Source: Endocalyx cinctus
Taxonomy: Eukaryota; Ascomycota; Sordariomycetes; Amphisphaeriales; Apiosporaceae
Length of the DNA: 64,000 nt
Assembly: GCA_001600455.1 (NCBI GenBank)
Contig: BCKC01000012.1
Location: forward strand, 186,001-250,000
Direction of reading: 5' to 3'
Shown here: positions 6,443 through 27,002 of the stretch, one piece after another
Position numbering within the stretch: position 1 is the first letter of the stretch
Layout: every line of letters starts with the position of its first letter
Made by a program: the position numbers and the translations under genes
Notes under the pieces: model-generated
What the model saw: the letters and a program-made list of their open reading frames with translations, nothing else
Database searches by the model: none
What the model was told of the DNA's origin: nothing

Positions 6443-8085
6443 TCATAATGCCGGTCCATCCCAAGCATCTCTTCTTAACCGACAGAGCCACGCTTGCTTG
6501 TGCGGAAGACTTAACTCTCGCTCTTTGGCGAATCCCGCGTTCTGCAGATGTTGGATAAATCTACGGTCGGGGCATTAATACTAGATGACTAGATGAACGT
6601 AGAATAGTGAAAAAAAAAAAAAAAGACTTACCTCAAATTATCCACCCTCGGCTCTAAGTAAATATTCATGGTCCTATGATCGGCCTGCCAGCACCAGTGA
6701 ACGAGGCTAGAGAGCCAATAAGGGACGAGACCCCTCGCCCACTCCTCGCCTACGAAGACGTGCATACCCCTGTCGAAGTCGTCCACCTCGCGCGTCTCCG
6801 TGTGCCGGCCGAGCGGGTCCTCGCGCACCCAGTAGATCTCGAAGTAGCCGAACGGGACGCCGTCCCAGAGGCCCACGGCCGGGAACGAGTGCCGCGACCG
6901 GAGCGCGTTGGTCAGGAAGTTGGGCGTGTACTCGCCCCAGAACGTCTTGACCCGCGGGTTCGACAGCCACATCTGCAGCAGCGACGTGTCCGACAGCGTC
7001 GCGAGGTGCGCGTGCGCGATCCCGCCGCTCTCGAGCGCGGATCCCACCGGTCCCTGGTGCGGCACCGGCTTCGGCGAGAGCGAGGCGACCCGGAAGGAGA
7101 GGTACTTGCCGACCGACGGCACGAACCGCGTGTAGAATATCTCGCCCATGCGCGGCGGCTTCTGCCGCAGCGGGTGTCGGACGTGATTCGTCATGGTGTA
7201 CTGCAGCGGCGGAGGCGGGTAATACGTCGGCAGGTGGGAGGAAGAGTAGTACGGTCCGCTCGGGAGTCCCGATAAGCCGGTCATGAGGGAAAGGGCTAGG
7301 CTACCGGCCGAGTCGGTGGAAACGTGGGTCGAGGTGAGGGTCGGTCTCTGGCCGGCTTCGCTTCTCACCGGCGATCCAGGTCTACTAGAAACCGGCGATC
7401 CAGGAAAGGAGTTCTTCACGGGCTGCAAAGTGAAGAGGAAAAGTCCGCTGTGGATTTGCCAGAATACGCGTCTGGAAACGAACATCTGATCCCAGCCTTC
7501 GGTCCCCTCGGAGTTCGTGCACACGGCCGAGTCGTAGCTCGCCACGAGGCCCATCCTCTCGAGCTTCGGGATCATATTCCGAGTTCGGAAGACGCCGTCG
7601 CGCTTGATCCTGATGCGCCAATCCCCCTTTGGCCTCGCTTCTGGCGGAGTATGCTTGGATGATGCCGTATCTAGATAAGGGGATGGCTCCGGTTGTTGAA
7701 AGTACCAGTATAAAGTGATCCAGAGCATTAAAGCTATCTGACGAGAAGGGCTCGAGTGAGGTTTATACTCGTTACTCGAGGGTGTGGATATAGAAGAGAT
7801 AAAGATAACATCGTTTTGGAGAGTAGGTTTGTAGTATTTGTGTATGTGATGATGTGATTTAGTAGAACTAGAGTCTCCTCCGCTTTTATCTTCTTCCGAT
7901 GAATTGGTGGCATCTTGTCTTCCCTTATCGTCGATGTCGTCCTCGCTGTGAAGAACAACGGTCCATCCGGTAGGAAAGGGGGTGGGATGCGCATGTAATT
8001 CGTTAGATTTGAAGAATAAACCTGAAAAGACAGGTTGAACGGTGAAAACCTGACCGTCGGGTAGGTGAACAGTGGACGGTGCCAT
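6443..8085 (-). CDS. Siderophore-type N5-hydroxyornithine acyltransferase, SidL/SidF-like
   Basis: Two exons: 6632-8085 and 6443-6560, with a 71-nt intron (GTAAGT...CGTAG). The product is 523 residues. The C-terminal 220 residues form the IucB/AlcB-like GNAT acyltransferase domain: IAHAHLATLSDTSLLQMWL, FPAVGLWDGVPFGYFEIYWV, then NIYLEPRVDN continuing across the splice junction into RFIQHLQNAGFAKERELSLP and ending RLRRDAWDGPAL. The seamless join proves the second exon. Such enzymes acylate N5-hydroxyornithine for ferricrocin (SidL, acetyl) or fusarinine-type siderophores (SidF, anhydromevalonyl). No PTS1 ends the protein and no siderophore NRPS lies nearby, so a SidL-like cytosolic role is more likely, but this is inference. 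The N-terminal half has low-complexity Ser/His and Pro/Tyr-rich stretches. Confidence 0.85.
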
Positions 8086-9179
8086 TGTTAAGTATGATGA
8101 TTGATGTGGTCGATGTTACAAAAATAAATCAATAATCTTGAAGGTAAACCTTGGAAGTAAACAAGTAAAACAAAATCACTTATTAAAGCATCTAGAGTTT
8201 CTAGGTAGATCCTAGGTAGTAGTAGTACCTTACATAGAAGGAATATATTTCGTCTTCTAGAAGCTGCGGGGTAAACATCAAAGAGAATCTTCTATTTTCA
8301 ATTCGAAGGATGTCGGAAGGATTCAAACCAATGAGAAAAAAGAATAAGCTGAAATAATCAGTCAACAATGTAAAGATCAAGATAAACCGGTGATGTAAAT
8401 CTCCCCTCCCATTATCGTGTTATCGTGCCATCACGAACGTCACATCCGGTAAGTATAACCAAGCTGAAAAGCCTTAATATTAATAAGTTACAATTCATTG
8501 GTGGGGTAAAGGAAGGTTGTGGGATGGTGATGATACCTACCTAGGTAAAAGGTACAACGCGGCCACCGTCTTACACGGTGGAGCTCGGAGACACCCGTTT
8601 TTAGGTAAGTATTGATTTGTTGATCAGGGGTATTCTTCAGATGGTGGCGTTGTAGTATTCCCATTTTTACGGAGCGGTGGTTCAATAATGACGATGTGAT
8701 CAAAGATATTTTTACGTCACCTGGGCAAATAATATTAACTGACGCTGAGTATTCTCCCGTACATTATTGTTCTCTCCGTCTTTTTATTTTATTTCATTAC
8801 ATGTAAGATACAAAATACCTCATCTTCTGCCTCTATCATTACATCCATAGTACTCCGTACATAGAATGCATTGTAGTAACTTGGTCCGTGCCTGGTTTAT
8901 TTACTAAGCCAAACTAAAATCATTAAATAAACTTAGTCATCAGTTGAAAAAGTTTCGTGGCGTTTTGTGGCGGTGCTTATACGCTGGAATAGGGGTTCAA
9001 AAGGGGCTGCCTGCACGTGAACATATTGACCGTAATGTCATCCATATCTATGATCTTTGCATCTGGCATCGACACCTCTAACCATATATCCTACGATTTA
9101 TTGACATCTAGATCTACTCTATTGTCTGAATAAATATTCTAATTAATCAATTACTAGTACATATGAGGCTAGAACACAC
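8086..9179. other. Intergenic region 5' of the acyltransferase
   Basis: AT-rich spacer. It contains the GATA words, CTAGGTAG-type words (8200-8230, 8533-8543) and one TACTCCGTA (8851-8859). No gene was recognised. Confidence 0.5.
8380..8425. promoter_or_regulatory. Cluster of GATA-type sites upstream of the acyltransferase
   Basis: Three HGATAR words lie about 295-340 bp upstream of the start at 8085: AGATAA (8380-8385) and, on the minus strand, CGATAA twice (8412-8417 and 8420-8425). Fungal siderophore genes are repressed by GATA factors of the SreA/SRE type that bind HGATAR. The sites are seen directly; their use is inference, and single GATA words are common. Confidence 0.3.
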
Positions 9180-9540: not shown

Positions 9541-10397
9541 TAGAATAACCCCTCCTCGATAGCCTCGTTCTCAACCTAATATACAACGACAGACTTTGTA
9601 ATACCTAATAGGCTAACAACCTCATCCCCAAGGCCTAGTAAACAACAATAAACTTAACGATAATGTGGCCTTGAATAATAATAAAACTCCCAGAGTATGC
9701 ATTTGCTAACTAACTACTATTTAGCAGTTACCATACAATAGAAAACCTTCGAAATATATATATACATAACTATACCTACCTCCTTCCAAATCATTTGCTC
9801 CTAAAATAATAAAGAAAAGGGTATAAATTATTATTCCGTATACTCCGTCGTTACCTCCTCGTCTTTCACTTCTAATTTCCTCAGTACTCTTTCTGCCTAA
9901 TTAGGACTTAAACTATTACCAATCGTTCGTTATTTCGTTGTTTCGTATGCTTCGAAAGGCCTCCTTCGCTTCTCACTTCTCTAAAATTTCCCCATAATAC
10001 TCCCTCTAATCAGGACTCATTCTCAAACTTTACTAAAGAGTTTTACGTCATTCTCGGTAGTAATTCGTTAATACAGTCTTTGATAGTTTCTTATTCGGTC
10101 GTTACTAGTAATATATGTACCTTTTACAAACGGGATCCTCCACAACTACTCGCTCATGATTATTATGAACAGAATCTTTAACGATATACTTATGAGATTT
10201 TATGATACAGTAGCTTCTAATAGCTCCTGACAGATGCTGATGACATCAGAAATTGAGATATAAATAGTTATTTTTACGATGCTTTAGAAAAAAGAGATAG
10301 AATGAGTCAATCATCCATTTTCCACAGATTTCCGACCATCACATTATACTATTCAGTAATAGCTCGTTAACAAAGTCTTCGCGCTTTCCTGTTCGAC

Positions 10398-10672
10398 TGC
10401 CTCGCATCGATTCTTACCATAGCAACACCATTCTTAATCACAAGTGGATGAGTGCTTGGTAAAACAAACAGCCTCTTCTCTCATTGAAATTTATCAGTGC
10501 GTAGATGATTAATTCCCCTTATTCAATTAATTAAGACAAAACCTCATTCCCAAGCCTCCAACCTGCCTTGCGGCAACTCTTGCCACAGCAACACCATTCT
10601 TAGTAGTAAGTGAATGGGTGCTTGGTAGAGCAAACAGCCTCTTCTCCCATTGATATTTACCAATGCGTAACT
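10398..10672 (+). repeat. Imperfect tandem repeat (about 105 bp, two copies)
   Basis: A segment starting near 10398 recurs near 10563. Both copies hold AGCAACACCATTCTTA, then a GAGTGCTTGGTA/GGGTGCTTGGTA block, AACAGCCTCTTCTC and an ATTTA-CAATGCGTA-like end. The copies differ mostly by transitions. The unit spacing is about 165 bp. Confidence 0.65.
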
Positions 10673-11164: not shown

Positions 11165-13124
11165 ATGTCTGGTTCTACTTATAACTTCGCTGACGCCTTC
11201 GAGGTTAACTTCCCGGAGGGCCACGACTACGACTTCAACATGGGCGATGATGACCTTCCCATCGCTCAGCAATTTGATCTCGACGCACCAAGCGACGTGC
11301 AGCGAACCAACGCCGCCTCTTCCATAGAGGACAACATGGTCAGTGACAACGAGACCACGAGTTCCTCAACAAATAATAACAACGACAACAACGACGCCTC
11401 TCCTCTAAATGAGATGGTGGAAGAGGAACCCCCGGTTGGTTTTAGCGGGATCGACTTCTCTGGGAGCCCCGAGGTAGACTGGCAGGCTGAAGAGAATGCC
11501 GCTTTCGACGACCCCAATGCTGCTTTCGACGACCCCCACGACAAAATCTTAGAGCAGTGGGGCCAGCTGGAACAGCAGAAGGCGGCAAATCCCAAGCTGA
11601 GGGTCTTCCGATTGCCTCCGGGGTGGTACGAAGCCTGGAGTCAATCACAGAAAAGGATGATGCAGAAGTTAGCATCGTAAGTAATTGATAATGTCTAACA
11701 TCTTGTATGCATATGCTAATGATTTATAGAATGGATCTGAAAATGGATATGGTGTTCGGAATGGACCAGATCCATGGCGACATCTTCCTGGGTCCGCCCT
11801 TGCAATTTGAGATTGTATGCGGATGGAAGAGATGCCAGGACGTCCCCGAGGTGGTACCGCAGCAGCAGCTGCCTACGACGAACATGCAGGGAGCGGCCGT
11901 ATCACATACGCCGCCTGCGCCTGCGCCGCCCGCGCCAGTAACGCCTGTGGCACCCCCCAGGTCGTTCCAGAGCCATCGACCCTCCACGGCGCCGAGAAAA
12001 AAGGCGAGCGTCTCGAGGAAGCGGTTGACAAAGGATCAACTCGAGGCGAAGATGCGGGAACTAGACACCTGCCGTCAAGAGCTTTCGGAGTAGGGACCCG
12101 AAAATCTTGACCGCAAGCTACTCCAAGTTCGACAGCACGCAAATCTCGTGCATGACGAAAATCAGCTTGCCGCCCCGGCCGCCTCTGGAGTAGTTGTCCA
12201 GAACACGGAGGGCACGGATATAGATGCAGTGACGGGAGAACATGTACCCCGACCTGCAAATATGTTCTTACAGTATCGAAAGGCGCTATCAAGGTACCTA
12301 CGCGCCAAGTACCCAGGCCTTTCTCAAGGAGAAATTTGTAAGTAATTATGAAATTAACTATCTTGTCTATCTATATGATTAATACTAACTCTCGTCAAAC
12401 AGCTGCCATGTCATCCATCACATGGGATAGGATGAGCGAAGAGCAAAGAGCGGTTTGGAAGCAGGATGCCGACAAGGAGGCATCACAGCAGAAGGAAAAG
12501 CACCCGGACTATAAATACTGCCCCCGACGAAACCCTGACAAGGTCACCAAGTCCACAAGGGCGAGAGTCAGCAGGAAAGCCAATCAGAGGAAAGTGGCCT
12601 CTACTCAGAGGGGTGTAGAGGCAACTATGGCTTCGTCATCATCACAATCTTCTGCCTGCATCTCCCCGGTGCTCTATTCACCGGAGCCCGTTGCGCCTTC
12701 TTCGGGCAGCCAGCCCATCATCGGCTCACGTTCCGCCTCTCCTTACGGCGGGCACAACAACAACGTGGTGCAGTCCGCAGAGCAAGTCATAGATCCACGT
12801 CTACTGAGTCTTGATCAACTACCTCAGGCGACTGCTAGTGCTGGCTCTGGCTCGGCTTGGTCCCCGTCGGCGAGTCCTGGATATTACCAGGGAAACCCTT
12901 CTGCTCCGGACAGCTCTTCTCATCCCGAGGCCGGATCTTCCTCTACACCATCCGCAGGTGTAGGGATTTCTCACCGCTCTCCAACTCCGGGACCTCGTCA
13001 CACCCGAGTTGGACGCCCGTCAACAATGGCACGGCCAGCGCCAAATGCGCAGGCGCTATCCCAGTGCTCCAAGCCCTATTATGGTGCCCTGACGTTGCCA
13101 GATATGGGGAATGGCAACCATTGA
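11165..13124 (+). CDS. MATA_HMG-type HMG-box protein, interrupted by one in-frame TAG
   Basis: Three exons: 11165-11676, 11730-12337, 12403-13124, with introns of 53 and 65 nt that have GTAAGT donors. The frame encodes 613 codons, but codon 292 is TAG (12091-12093). Beyond it the same frame continues into the HMG box (about residues 344-416: RPANMFLQYRKALSRYLRAK, GLSQGEIS, then WDRMSEEQRAVWKQDADKEA and HPDYKYCPRR). The second intron splits the Ser codon of GEIS after its first base, the intron position I recall for MAT1-2-1-type HMG boxes. Such proteins are DNA-binding regulators of mating and sexual development. The N-terminus is acidic and Asn/Ser-rich; the C-terminus is Ser/Pro-rich. Usual MAT neighbours (SLA2, APN2) are absent here. 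Either the gene is a one-hit pseudogene, or the stop is removed by RNA editing or read through. Without that, the product would be a 291-residue protein lacking the HMG box. Confidence 0.8.
11497..11538 (+). repeat. 21-bp in-frame tandem duplication in the HMG gene
   Basis: Two adjacent copies of a 21-bp unit encode NAAFDDP followed by NAAFDDP. They differ only at a few third positions. It is a local coding duplication in the acidic N-terminal region. Confidence 0.7.
12083..12103 (+). promoter_or_regulatory. Predicted RNA hairpin presenting the in-frame UAG
   Basis: TTTCGG (12083-12088) pairs perfectly with CCGAAA (12098-12103). The nine-base loop AGTAGGGAC carries the stop codon, with the candidate edited adenosine at 12092. 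A further G12090-C97 pair is possible with a bulged A. Fungal sexual-stage A-to-I editing favours UAG triplets in hairpin loops; conversion would give UGG (Trp). Confidence 0.5.
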
Positions 13125-14254: not shown

Positions 14255-15703
14255 CTATTTCTTAACATTCTTTTGCGTTGAATCAGATCTGGTTTCTTTC
14301 TTCTTCTTCAAATCATCTCTCTTCTCATCGACATCATCTTCGTCGTCGTCATCCCTCCTCCTATCCTTCTTATGGTCTTCCTTCTCGAGCACCTCCTTCA
14401 CCTCCTCCCCGCCCAGGTCCCTCGCCTCGTCGTAATCGACGTCGTACTCCTCGGCGATCATCTTGATCTCCCGCCGGATCGCGTTCGCGTCCTGCACCAG
14501 CGACTCCCACTTGGCCGGGTCGAACCCGCGCGCCTGGTACAGCACGTTCTGCCGCCGCGAGACCGTCAGCCGTAGGGCCGCCTGGTAGCTGAGGTCGCGG
14601 CTGATGAACAGGAACCACAAGTATCCGCCCATGATCGTGGTTAGTCCGGCGAGGTACGTGACCGGCTCGACGAGGTCCCAGCCGGCGTCGGTGTGAAAGG
14701 TGACGAAGTACACCGTCGCCCACCAGCCCGAGAGCACGGCGAACCCCCCTTTCGCGAGCCGGTGAGCGCCGCGATGGGCGAGCAGGTCGCACTCGTGCTT
14801 GATCTTGGACAGCTGCTCGATCCGGTGAGACATCCTCCGCAGCCGGATCCGTAGGAAGTGCGTCCGATCGTTGAAGCTAGGAACTTCGACCGACATTTCC
14901 GTGTTGTGGCCTTGGATCTCGATGGCGAATTCGCGACCGCGGGCGGCGTCGCGGATGAAATCGCCTATCTCGGTCGAGCTGCTCCACCGTACCCAGTCCT
15001 TCTTCTCCGAGGGCGTGTCGGCTCCCTCTCGTCCCAGGCCCGAGTAGGAGGCGATGTTGGACTGCGGGTTGCTCGTCTGTTGCCCGGCCTCGTCGCGCTC
15101 GGAACCTTCGGCGAGGAAGAAGATGCTCGGTATCTTCTCCTTTCCGTCCTGGTCGTGCACGGGAGGAAGCTCCGCTTGTATGAGACGTTCGAGGTAGGAT
15201 AGGGGTTGATGGGGGTGCACGAGTAGTGCCAACGGCTGAATATCTTCATTCTGGGCGAGCGATCGGAATTCTCCTCTGTTTCCGTTTTCATCGTGGGTGG
15301 CATCAACTGGTAACGGTAGGATAAGTTTGAGGAGTCGGGTTGGGGTAGTTAATAGTTTCCCCTTCGTCATCTTGCTCACGTTGCGTCGGGCGTCGCTGGT
15401 AGGCGGCTCGTCTGCCCCCTCTCTCTGCCATGGTCGTTTTATCTGTTGTTTCGTGGCATCTTGTATGCGATCCTTCACCTCGGCTTCGTGTACGTCTTGA
15501 TCTCTCTGATTAGTCTCTCTCGCCGTCTCTTCTTGCAATAATTTCTGCTTCGCGAGGTAGCTTTCGGTAAAGGACCGAAAATACGAATTTGTAACGAAGG
15601 TATTGGGATATGGACGAAAATGGGTTGAAGTAATGATACTGTTAGTAAGACGCCGGTTGCTCACGGCGGACAGCTGTGAGCATGCCCGATACGCATAGCT
15701 CAT
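14255..15703 (-). CDS. Mitochondrial calcium uniporter family protein (MCU/MCUP)
   Basis: Single exon, 482 residues. The N-terminus ([19 protein letters not shown]) is rich in Arg/Ser and lacks acids, as a mitochondrial presequence does. A long N-terminal matrix region and coiled-coil ([20 protein letters not shown]) precede TM1 (about 318-340). The pore signature WDLVEP is at 342-347, corresponding to the WDxxEP selectivity filter. TM2 ([13 protein letters not shown]) and a second coiled-coil follow, with a very acidic/basic C-terminal tail ([17 protein letters not shown]). MCU forms the Ca2+ channel of the inner membrane. Fungal ascomycete members have been argued to be a paralogous clade lacking EMRE, so channel activity here is not assured. 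Confidence 0.88.
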
Positions 15704-16614
15704 GACGGCTTCTCTAATTTAAAGAGAGTAAATACAGGCATGAAGTTTGATATCTTCATATCGAAAGGATGTTAGTAGACAGCTGAGACGTAATTAGGAG
15801 ATTATACAGTAGCTACCGGAACAAATAGTCCTGAAGTAAATAAAGATTACCTAAGAGGTCAATTCCAAGGATTTGGATAATGACGTCACCTTATATACCT
15901 CATTAGGTAGCTTTGTCGATCAGATCATATCGAGATGGATGACTAAGCGTAGTCTCTCAAATGTAGGAAACATTACTAATAATGGATCTCGAAAACTGGC
16001 AGGGTCAGGTGCCAGGTGCCAGATAGCTATCAGCTACCCTGGTGTGAGTGTATCATTACGATGTATATATAGATACATGCGGTCTCCCTCCCATCTCCCT
16101 CCCATATATTCGGTATCCCCTTAACTGTCAACTCAAATGTAAGAACAGAGCCAGGGATCAATATATCATTGAGCCCTGTCCTTACATCTACCTAACCGGT
16201 ATCATGCATGCTGTACCCTCACTCCGGTATACCCCACCATTTCCTCACAAAAATATCAGGCCCGGGATAACTTTCAATGTACTGTGATAAAACAGAATCG
16301 ATCATCTAGTATGTGGCTAACTTCGAGTTAGAGTATAACTAATGATAGTATCTTGATAAAAGAGCAGGTACAGATACAATTCTGGCAATCTACTATTTAC
16401 TACTGACCATGTTATATTCAACTCTTCCAGAAGCTCCTTTACGTAGCAGCTGAATACGAATTTTATAGCTGGAATAGTTTACGGAATAGTTTAGTGGGTT
16501 TGATGATGGTGAGTTCGTACTTAAAGGGACAGACGCTTTATAATAATAACTGAATCTATACTGAGATATATTCGAGAAATTGACGTTTTCAGGGTTAAAT
16601 TAATACCTCACGAG
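15704..16614. other. Intergenic region with repeat copy
   Basis: AT-rich spacer between the MCU-family gene and the unknown gene. Apart from the dispersed repeat copy at 16045-16290 I see no gene. A short direct duplication (GGTGCCAGGTGCCAG, near 16009) is present. Confidence 0.5.
16045..16290 (+). repeat. Dispersed repeat, copy 2
   Basis: Matches the minus strand of 9340-9540 in block order: GTATATATA, CGGTCTCCCTCC, TATCATTGAGCCCTG, then ACCGGTAT, CACTCCGGTATACC and a CAC...A end. This copy carries an insertion after the CTCCC block. The two copies lie inverted around the HMG-MCU segment. Confidence 0.55.
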
Positions 16615-25859: not shown

Positions 25860-27002
25860 ATGACTGAGATTTACCGAGCTAGTACGACGGCACCCGTCAA
25901 CATTGCCGTCGTCAAGTACTGGGGAAAGCGAGATGCGAAGCTAAACCTACCTACCAACTCTTCCCTATCCGTCACCCTGTCGCAGTCGGATCTGCGTACC
26001 CTCACGACCGCCACCTGCTCGAGCACGTACACCGGCGATGACTCCTTAACCCTCAACGGCAGCCCCTCCGACATCACCGGAGCCCGCACGCAAGCCTGCC
26101 TCCGCGAGCTGAAGACCCTCCGCGCCGATCTCGAGGCCAAGAACCCGTCCCTGCCCAAGCTATCGGCCATGCCGCTGCGCATCGTGTCGGAGAACAACTT
26201 CCCGACCGCGGCCGGGCTCGCCTCGTCGGCGGCCGGGTTCGCCGCCCTCGTGCGCGCCATCGCCGACCTGTACGAGCTGCCGAGCTCGCCGACCGACCTC
26301 TCGCTCATCGCCCGCCAGGGCAGCGGCTCGGCGTGCCGCAGCCTGTTCGGCGGGTACGTGGCGTGGGAGATGGGCGCGCAGGCGGACGGGCTCGACTCCA
26401 AGGCGGTCGAGGTGGCCCCGGCGTCGCACTGGCCCGAGATGCGGGCGCTGATCCTCGTCGTCTCGGCCGCCAAGAAGGGCGTCAGCTCGACGTCGGGCAT
26501 GCAGCAGACGGTGGCGACGTCGGACCTGTTCCAGCAGCGCATCGCGACCGTCGTGCCGAAGCACATGGACCTCATGATCGAGGCCGTCAAGGCCAAAGAC
26601 TTCGCCAAGTTCGCCGAGGTCACCATGAAGGACTCCAACTCGTTCCACTCGACCTGCTCGGATACCTACCCCCCGATCTACTACATGAACGACGTCTCCC
26701 GCGCCGCCGTCCGCGCCGTCGAGGCCATCAACGCCGCCGCCGGTAAGACCGTTGCCGCTTATACCTTCGACGCCGGCCCCAACGCCGTCGTCTACTACCT
26801 CGAGCAGGACGCCCCGGCCGTCGTCGGTGCTTTCTACGATATCATGAAGAGCACCGACGGCTGGAAGGAGGAGGCCAAGACTCTCTCCTCGACAGTAAAG
26901 CTCGACGCTACCGTAGCGGAAATAGTCAAGAACGGAGTGAGCAGGATCATTATGACGGGAGTAGGCGAGGGTCCGATCAAGACGGAGCAGCACTTGGCGT
27001 GA
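25860..27002 (+). CDS. MVD1: Mevalonate diphosphate decarboxylase
   Basis: Single exon, 380 residues. Converts mevalonate-5-diphosphate to isopentenyl diphosphate with ATP, the last step of the mevalonate pathway that feeds ergosterol and isoprenoids (yeast ERG19). GHMP-kinase-fold features are visible: N-terminal APVNIAVVKYWGKRD with the conserved Lys; the ATP-binding loop SENNFPTAAGLASSAAGFA (110-128); QGSGSACRSLFGG with the conserved Ser/Arg; and YTFDAGPNAVV holding the catalytic Asp303. Length is close to the fungal norm. The ATG at 25860 follows an A-rich leader and starts the conserved N-terminus. Strong use of C/G-ending codons suggests good expression. Confidence 0.96.
   Translation: MTEIYRASTTAPVNIAVVKYWGKRDAKLNLPTNSSLSVTLSQSDLRTLTTATCSSTYTGDDSLTLNGSPSDITGARTQACLRELKTLRADLEAKNPSLPKLSAMPLRIVSENNFPTAAGLASSAAGFAALVRAIADLYELPSSPTDLSLIARQGSGSACRSLFGGYVAWEMGAQADGLDSKAVEVAPASHWPEMRALILVVSAAKKGVSSTSGMQQTVATSDLFQQRIATVVPKHMDLMIEAVKAKDFAKFAEVTMKDSNSFHSTCSDTYPPIYYMNDVSRAAVRAVEAINAAAGKTVAAYTFDAGPNAVVYYLEQDAPAVVGAFYDIMKSTDGWKEEAKTLSSTVKLDATVAEIVKNGVSRIIMTGVGEGPIKTEQHLA

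Follow-up and report, generated by a model that had tools for sequence, protein, structure and literature searches.

A candidate editable UAG in a hairpin loop ahead of the HMG box of a predicted fungal DNA-binding protein

Stop correction of transcription factors is already known from CHE1 of Fusarium graminearum and ZAO of Neurospora crassa. In CHE1, the premature-stop-correction (PSC) site TA437G is the one in-frame TAG of the gene and lies in a predicted hairpin loop. It is preceded by a domain-less N-terminal part of 145 residues and followed by C2H2 zinc fingers, with no useful start downstream; editing was measured at 9–10% in hyphae, and the site is kept in related Fusarium species (PMC11169179). 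ZAO, the zinc-finger partner in the OLD-ZAO pair, is likewise gated by UAG correction in a hairpin loop with U at −1, but is virus-induced and stands beside its own deaminase gene (PMC12754623). F. graminearum and N. crassa have further PSC genes with known orthologs, PUK1/stk-21 among them, in which cDNA shows that one UAG, or two in tandem, as the only interruption of the frame, become UGG in perithecia; automated annotation inserts a false intron there (PMC4817773). In F. graminearum PUK1, UAGUAG in the kinase domain is corrected to UGGUGG (PMC4817773), and the first of these sites is kept in N. crassa (PMC4817773; PMC11156358). Editing prefers U at −1, A or G at +1, and hairpin loops of low energy (PMC4817773), and base preferences around the edited A are also given in PMC11156358. 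In passages of PMC4817773, no HMG-box gene was found among the named PSC genes of the two species. Similarly, an open-licence literature search on A-to-I and stop-codon editing gave no report of an HMG-box case, nor is one described in passages of a Sordaria review and of an F. graminearum transcription-factor paper, and passages on A-to-I RNA editing and Xylaria gave no editing data for Xylariales.

The window, which is the whole stretch of 64,000 nucleotides analyzed here, contains an HMG-box gene with a candidate editable stop on the plus strand at 11165–13124 (positions without a contig name are those of the window). In the gene model rebuilt from the sequence, three exons (11165–11676, 11730–12337, and 12403–13124) join to 1842 nt, corresponding to 613 codons and a final TGA. 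The original prediction of a single in-frame TAG in an otherwise open frame agrees with the joined exons, in which the TAG at 12091–12093 (codon 292, with A12092 as the candidate edited base) is the only internal stop; each of the two remaining frames is interrupted by 20 stops. The two introns, one on either side of the TAG, are canonical. Intron 1 (11677–11729, 53 nt) reads GTAAGT ... CTAAT ... TAG and intron 2 (12338–12402, 65 nt), which is located within the HMG box, reads GTAAGT ... CTAAC ... CAG, so that both donors match GTAAGT at 6/6 positions and CTAAT or CTAAC lies close to each acceptor. A direct repeat of 107 nt with 82% identity (10397–10503 and 10563–10669) is found upstream of the gene. 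The neighbours on either side are a GNAT gene (6628–8115) and an MCU gene (14255–15718).

The positions of the domains relative to the TAG should be noted. The part made without read-through (11165–12090, including intron 1) comprises 291 residues, is acidic, and has no Pfam domain above its cut-off. The HMG box is encoded at 12247–12515 (codons 344–411) and is split by intron 2. When joined across the intron, it matches PF00505 with 46.7 bits (Pfam cut-off, 25.4 bits; E 4.5e-12) over profile positions 2–69 of 69 and residues 29–96 of a 111-residue piece, as expected from the prediction of a complete box beyond the TAG. The best match among solved structures is the SOX-9 HMG box (4euw, E 1.2e-11). 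Judging from the complete box above the Pfam cut-off, the gene is assigned as a putative HMG-box (SOX/MATA-type) DNA-binding protein gene. The box is complete only if the frame is read through the TAG and over intron 2. Downstream of the TAG, the next in-frame ATG is codon 349, which falls within the box, so a second start would not yield the whole box, and a separate gene starting after the TAG was rejected on this ground. The third-position G+C content falls from 0.677 upstream of the TAG to 0.533 downstream, which counts against stop correction.

The TAG lies in a hairpin at 12070–12115 on the plus strand. The perfect 6-bp stem with the TAG in its loop that had originally been pointed out is present (TTTCGG/CCGAAA, 12083–12088/12098–12103), yet it is only the top of a larger structure of 6 + 7 + 3 bp. 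A perfect middle stem of 7 bp (GTCAAGA/TCTTGAC, 12074–12080/12105–12111) and a basal stem of 3 bp (TGC/GCA, 12070–12072/12113–12115) lie below it, and the lowest-energy form also pairs G12090 with C12097 and U12091 with A12096. A12092 is located in the apical loop, with an unpaired probability of 0.999–1.0 in all four fold lengths from 41 to 121 nt. The folding energy is −17.1 kcal/mol for 41 nt (z −3.97; 1 of 200 shuffles equally good) and −21.5 kcal/mol for 61 nt (z −3.55; 0 of 200), and the 121-nt context as a whole has ordinary stability (z −1.11; 25 of 200 shuffles as good). The sequence at 12091–12096 is UAG GGA, giving U at −1 and G at +1, +2, and +3 around A12092. The site therefore has the features of PSC sites, namely, an in-frame UAG in an intact frame, U at −1 with G at +1, and the A in a stable hairpin loop.

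The rarity of such a hairpin was estimated with several null models. Of 5,851 TAGs folded from the two strands of the window and of a set of other loci, 17, including that at 12091–12093, reach −17.1 kcal/mol or lower with their A in a hairpin loop; the counts are 2 of 1,583 for TAGs within the window and 3 of 2,010 for TAGs at similar G+C content. When the peptide and the TAG were fixed and the surrounding codons were recoded synonymously, 2 of 5,000 recodings with the codon usage of the gene and 1 of 5,000 with uniform codon choice matched this stability while keeping the A in the loop, which means that the hairpin is not accounted for by the encoded protein. Of 218 alternative single-base changes that would create a stop in the gene, 103 give TAG, and 50 of these place the A in a loop; a single one reaches −17.1 kcal/mol. 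None of the 8 TGG and 31 CAG codons of the gene, if turned to TAG, reaches this energy with the A in a loop. What the null models say is that the TAG site is special; editing itself is a separate matter.

The host was placed by one housekeeping protein. The diphosphomevalonate decarboxylase encoded at 25860–26999 of the window and its counterpart in Xylariomycetidae sp. FL2044 share 87% identity, the highest value among the matches listed (best 120 of 7,944), and the next-closest among them are from Xylariaceae and allies. The host accordingly belongs to Xylariomycetidae in the class Sordariomycetes. A search with 5.8S rRNA gave no match. Fusarium and Neurospora had been named when the site was first considered; the Sordariomycete host is in agreement with this, and the closest genomes by this protein are those of Xylariales. 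Two protein searches with the HMG protein gave no relatives among 7,990 and 510 scored candidates. These searches rely on shared five-residue words and similar lengths, so the result means that there is no close ortholog, rather than none at all. The closest HMG boxes elsewhere in the same genome share 35% and 32% identity with this one, and no paralog of the N-terminal part was found.

The genome encodes two deaminases that we take, from their motifs, to be Tad2-like and Tad3-like, and has three DUF726 genes. In the one at C4:3080802–3081882 (L017/L019), Glu, Arg, Asp, and His are found at +15, +17, +58, and +98 from the nucleophile Ser, the same spacings as those of S531, E546, R548, D589, and H629 in FgAme1 (PMC11087585). 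Four of the five FgAme1 positions checked fit in this Ame1-like gene. The Met-Val pair, which in FgAme1 is needed for Tad3 binding (PMC11087585), is not exact; Gly-Ile occupies its place and Ile-Val is one residue further, which counts against stop correction. The other two DUF726 genes fit the FgAme1 spacings incompletely. A TAG within one DUF726 match (L016) was considered as a second editing site and rejected as an intron end, judged by eye. The host lineage appears to have the editing machinery, i.e. Tad2, Tad3, and Ame1.

A second gene with in-frame TAGs is found elsewhere in the genome. The NDR/CBK1-like kinase gene on the minus strand of C9:1394893–1397174 (L058) has a frame that is open over 748 codons in the fetched locus, save two TAGs (C9:1396085–1396087 and C9:1395665–1395667). 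In alignments with yeast CBK1 (4lqp) and human STK38 (6bxi), both TAGs coincide with conserved Trp residues, one being the leading Trp of DWWSLG and the other the Trp within the FRGVDW segment. Such a pair in an otherwise open kinase gene is hard to account for unless UAG is corrected to UGG. This alignment makes the gene a strong PSC candidate and an independent hint of UAG-to-UGG editing in the genome, and we infer that it may be the PUK1 ortholog. The RNA structures should also be noted. The RNA at the first kinase TAG does not exceed its shuffles in stability (z +0.46), a point against editing, and when 61 or 81 nt are folded, its A falls in an interior loop and not in a hairpin loop. At the second TAG, the unpaired probability of the A is 0.45–0.98, and the base is often paired in longer segments.

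In a Pkinase profile search in which 124 of 214 candidates were scored, 23 of the 139 matches listed have internal stops, 16 of them with TAG. Eighteen of the 23, including all 16 with TAG, were inspected by eye. In 14 of the 16 the TAG was judged to be intronic, one match belongs to a decayed gene (L054), and one has the TAG at a Trp position (L058); a single gene with the Trp pattern among 16 was counted against stop correction. L054 (C1:5303207–5305527, minus strand) is an Aurora-like kinase piece with a TGA and two TAG stops and is apparently decayed. Internal stops were found in none of the 150 WD40, one SPO22, and three DNA-methylase matches listed, among which AMA1 and RID orthologs were not identified. 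Fusarium relatives of such genes are edited (PMC11156358), and the stop-free matches also count against stop correction.

We consider that the TAG at 12091–12093 is likely a PSC site edited from A to I, probably by the Tad2-Tad3-Ame1 complex during fruiting. The genomic setting suits this proposal, since a Sordariomycete host with Tad2-, Tad3-, and Ame1-like genes and a second gene with two TAGs at conserved Trp positions are at hand. A12092 in the hairpin loop of the mRNA would be deaminated to inosine by the complex, UAG would then be decoded as UGG, and the ribosome would continue through the HMG box. The edited transcript would encode a DNA-binding protein of 613 residues that has Trp at position 292 and may act as a regulator, and the unedited transcript would give the acidic 291-residue piece without the HMG box. 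The restriction to fruiting bodies is presumed from the biology of Tad2-Tad3-Ame1, though editing outside sex also exists, as in CHE1 (PMC11169179) and ZAO (PMC12754623).

The main rival to stop correction is a TAG without function. It may be a nonsense allele of recent origin in a gene that until then was undamaged, or a base may be wrong in the assembly while the living strain carries an intact gene. A lone defect in an otherwise intact frame is just how a young mutation or an error looks, only one event is needed, and the genome holds at least one decayed kinase copy (L054). However, the hairpin would then be a coincidence of approximately 1 in 200 to 1 in 2,500 by two null models, and the kinase gene on C9 also has TAGs as its sole internal stops, at conserved Trp positions; we regard this explanation as the less likely one. 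Splicing, alternative or regular, that takes out the TAG in frame seems improbable. Such splicing out has been reported beside editing for FgBUD14 (PMC11156358), and 71 GT...AG pairs of 42–400 nt would remove the TAG in frame. In six of the best-scoring 25, a branch-like TTGAC precedes the acceptor, including 11815–12135 (GTATGC, 321 nt) and 12074–12127 (GTCAAG, 54 nt). However, the best donors among these 25 match GTAAGT at 4/6 positions, as opposed to 6/6 in both real introns, and the 54-nt candidate combines a 3/6 donor with an AAG acceptor. The long candidates would delete 180–400 nt of open frame, and the TAG itself, as an acceptor, has no branch-like sequence in the 45 nt upstream. A splice form removing 12091–12093, named beforehand as an outcome that would speak against editing, is thus poorly supported, judging from the weak donors and branch sites in the best 25 of the 71 pairs.

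The site could also be edited by an OLD-type (OTT_1508-like) deaminase, not by Tad2-Tad3-Ame1, in the manner of the antiviral OLD-ZAO pairs known from Neurospora. The genome has two matches to the OTT_1508-like deaminase domain (PF14441; L065 and L066), at C8:286894–287076 and C1:4628159–4628425. Neither is on C12, the contig of the window, whereas the genes of OLD enzymes are described as neighbours of their targets; the HMG gene adjoins no OTT_1508-like deaminase gene, and a regular-expression scan found no tandem C2H2 gene in the 20 kb around each match. We see very little chance for this type of enzyme here. Creation of the stop by RIP is scarcely credible. RIP converts TpG to TpA and CpA to TpA, and TAG is obtainable from TGG or CAG by changes of this type. 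By the usual thresholds, however, the dinucleotide indices show no sign of RIP in the HMG gene (TpA/ApT, 0.67; (CpA+TpG)/(ApC+GpT), 1.27), and a second copy of the gene was not found in the genome. RIP was rejected as the source of the stop on these two observations.

Among the known systems, CHE1 and ZAO would be closest in design to the HMG gene, if its stop correction is real. The gene resembles CHE1 in its layout, being a putative transcription-factor gene whose only in-frame TAG is predicted to lie in a hairpin loop, between an N-terminal part that lacks domains and a DNA-binding domain, with no useful start further downstream. The differences are the HMG box in place of C2H2 zinc fingers, the conservation of the CHE1 site in related species, and the measured editing of CHE1, whereas that of the HMG gene is predicted from sequence (PMC11169179). 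The hairpin loop, the U at −1, and the proposed gating of a transcription factor by UAG correction are shared with ZAO, from which the gene differs in having no PF14441 gene on its contig (PMC12754623). The lone UAG in an otherwise open frame is shared with PUK1/stk-21 and the other PSC genes, in which editing was demonstrated, while it is predicted here (PMC4817773).

More tentatively, an HMG-box factor that is fast-evolving and restricted to its lineage might have its entire DNA-binding output gated by one UAG in a purpose-shaped hairpin and be switched on by RNA editing, in the way that CHE1 and ZAO are with their zinc fingers; we put this forward as a possibility, and not as the more probable outcome. 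Gene finders will truncate or wrongly splice such genes, which should be kept in mind in annotation. If real, the HMG gene and the kinase gene on C9 would together be sequence evidence for working UAG correction in Xylariomycetidae. Another regulator with its DNA-binding domain behind an editable stop would allow a test of whether stop correction favours transcription factors as its targets. An edit-gated HMG-box factor, if true, would add a third class of DNA-binding protein to those under this switch and would extend functional stop correction to Xylariomycetidae.
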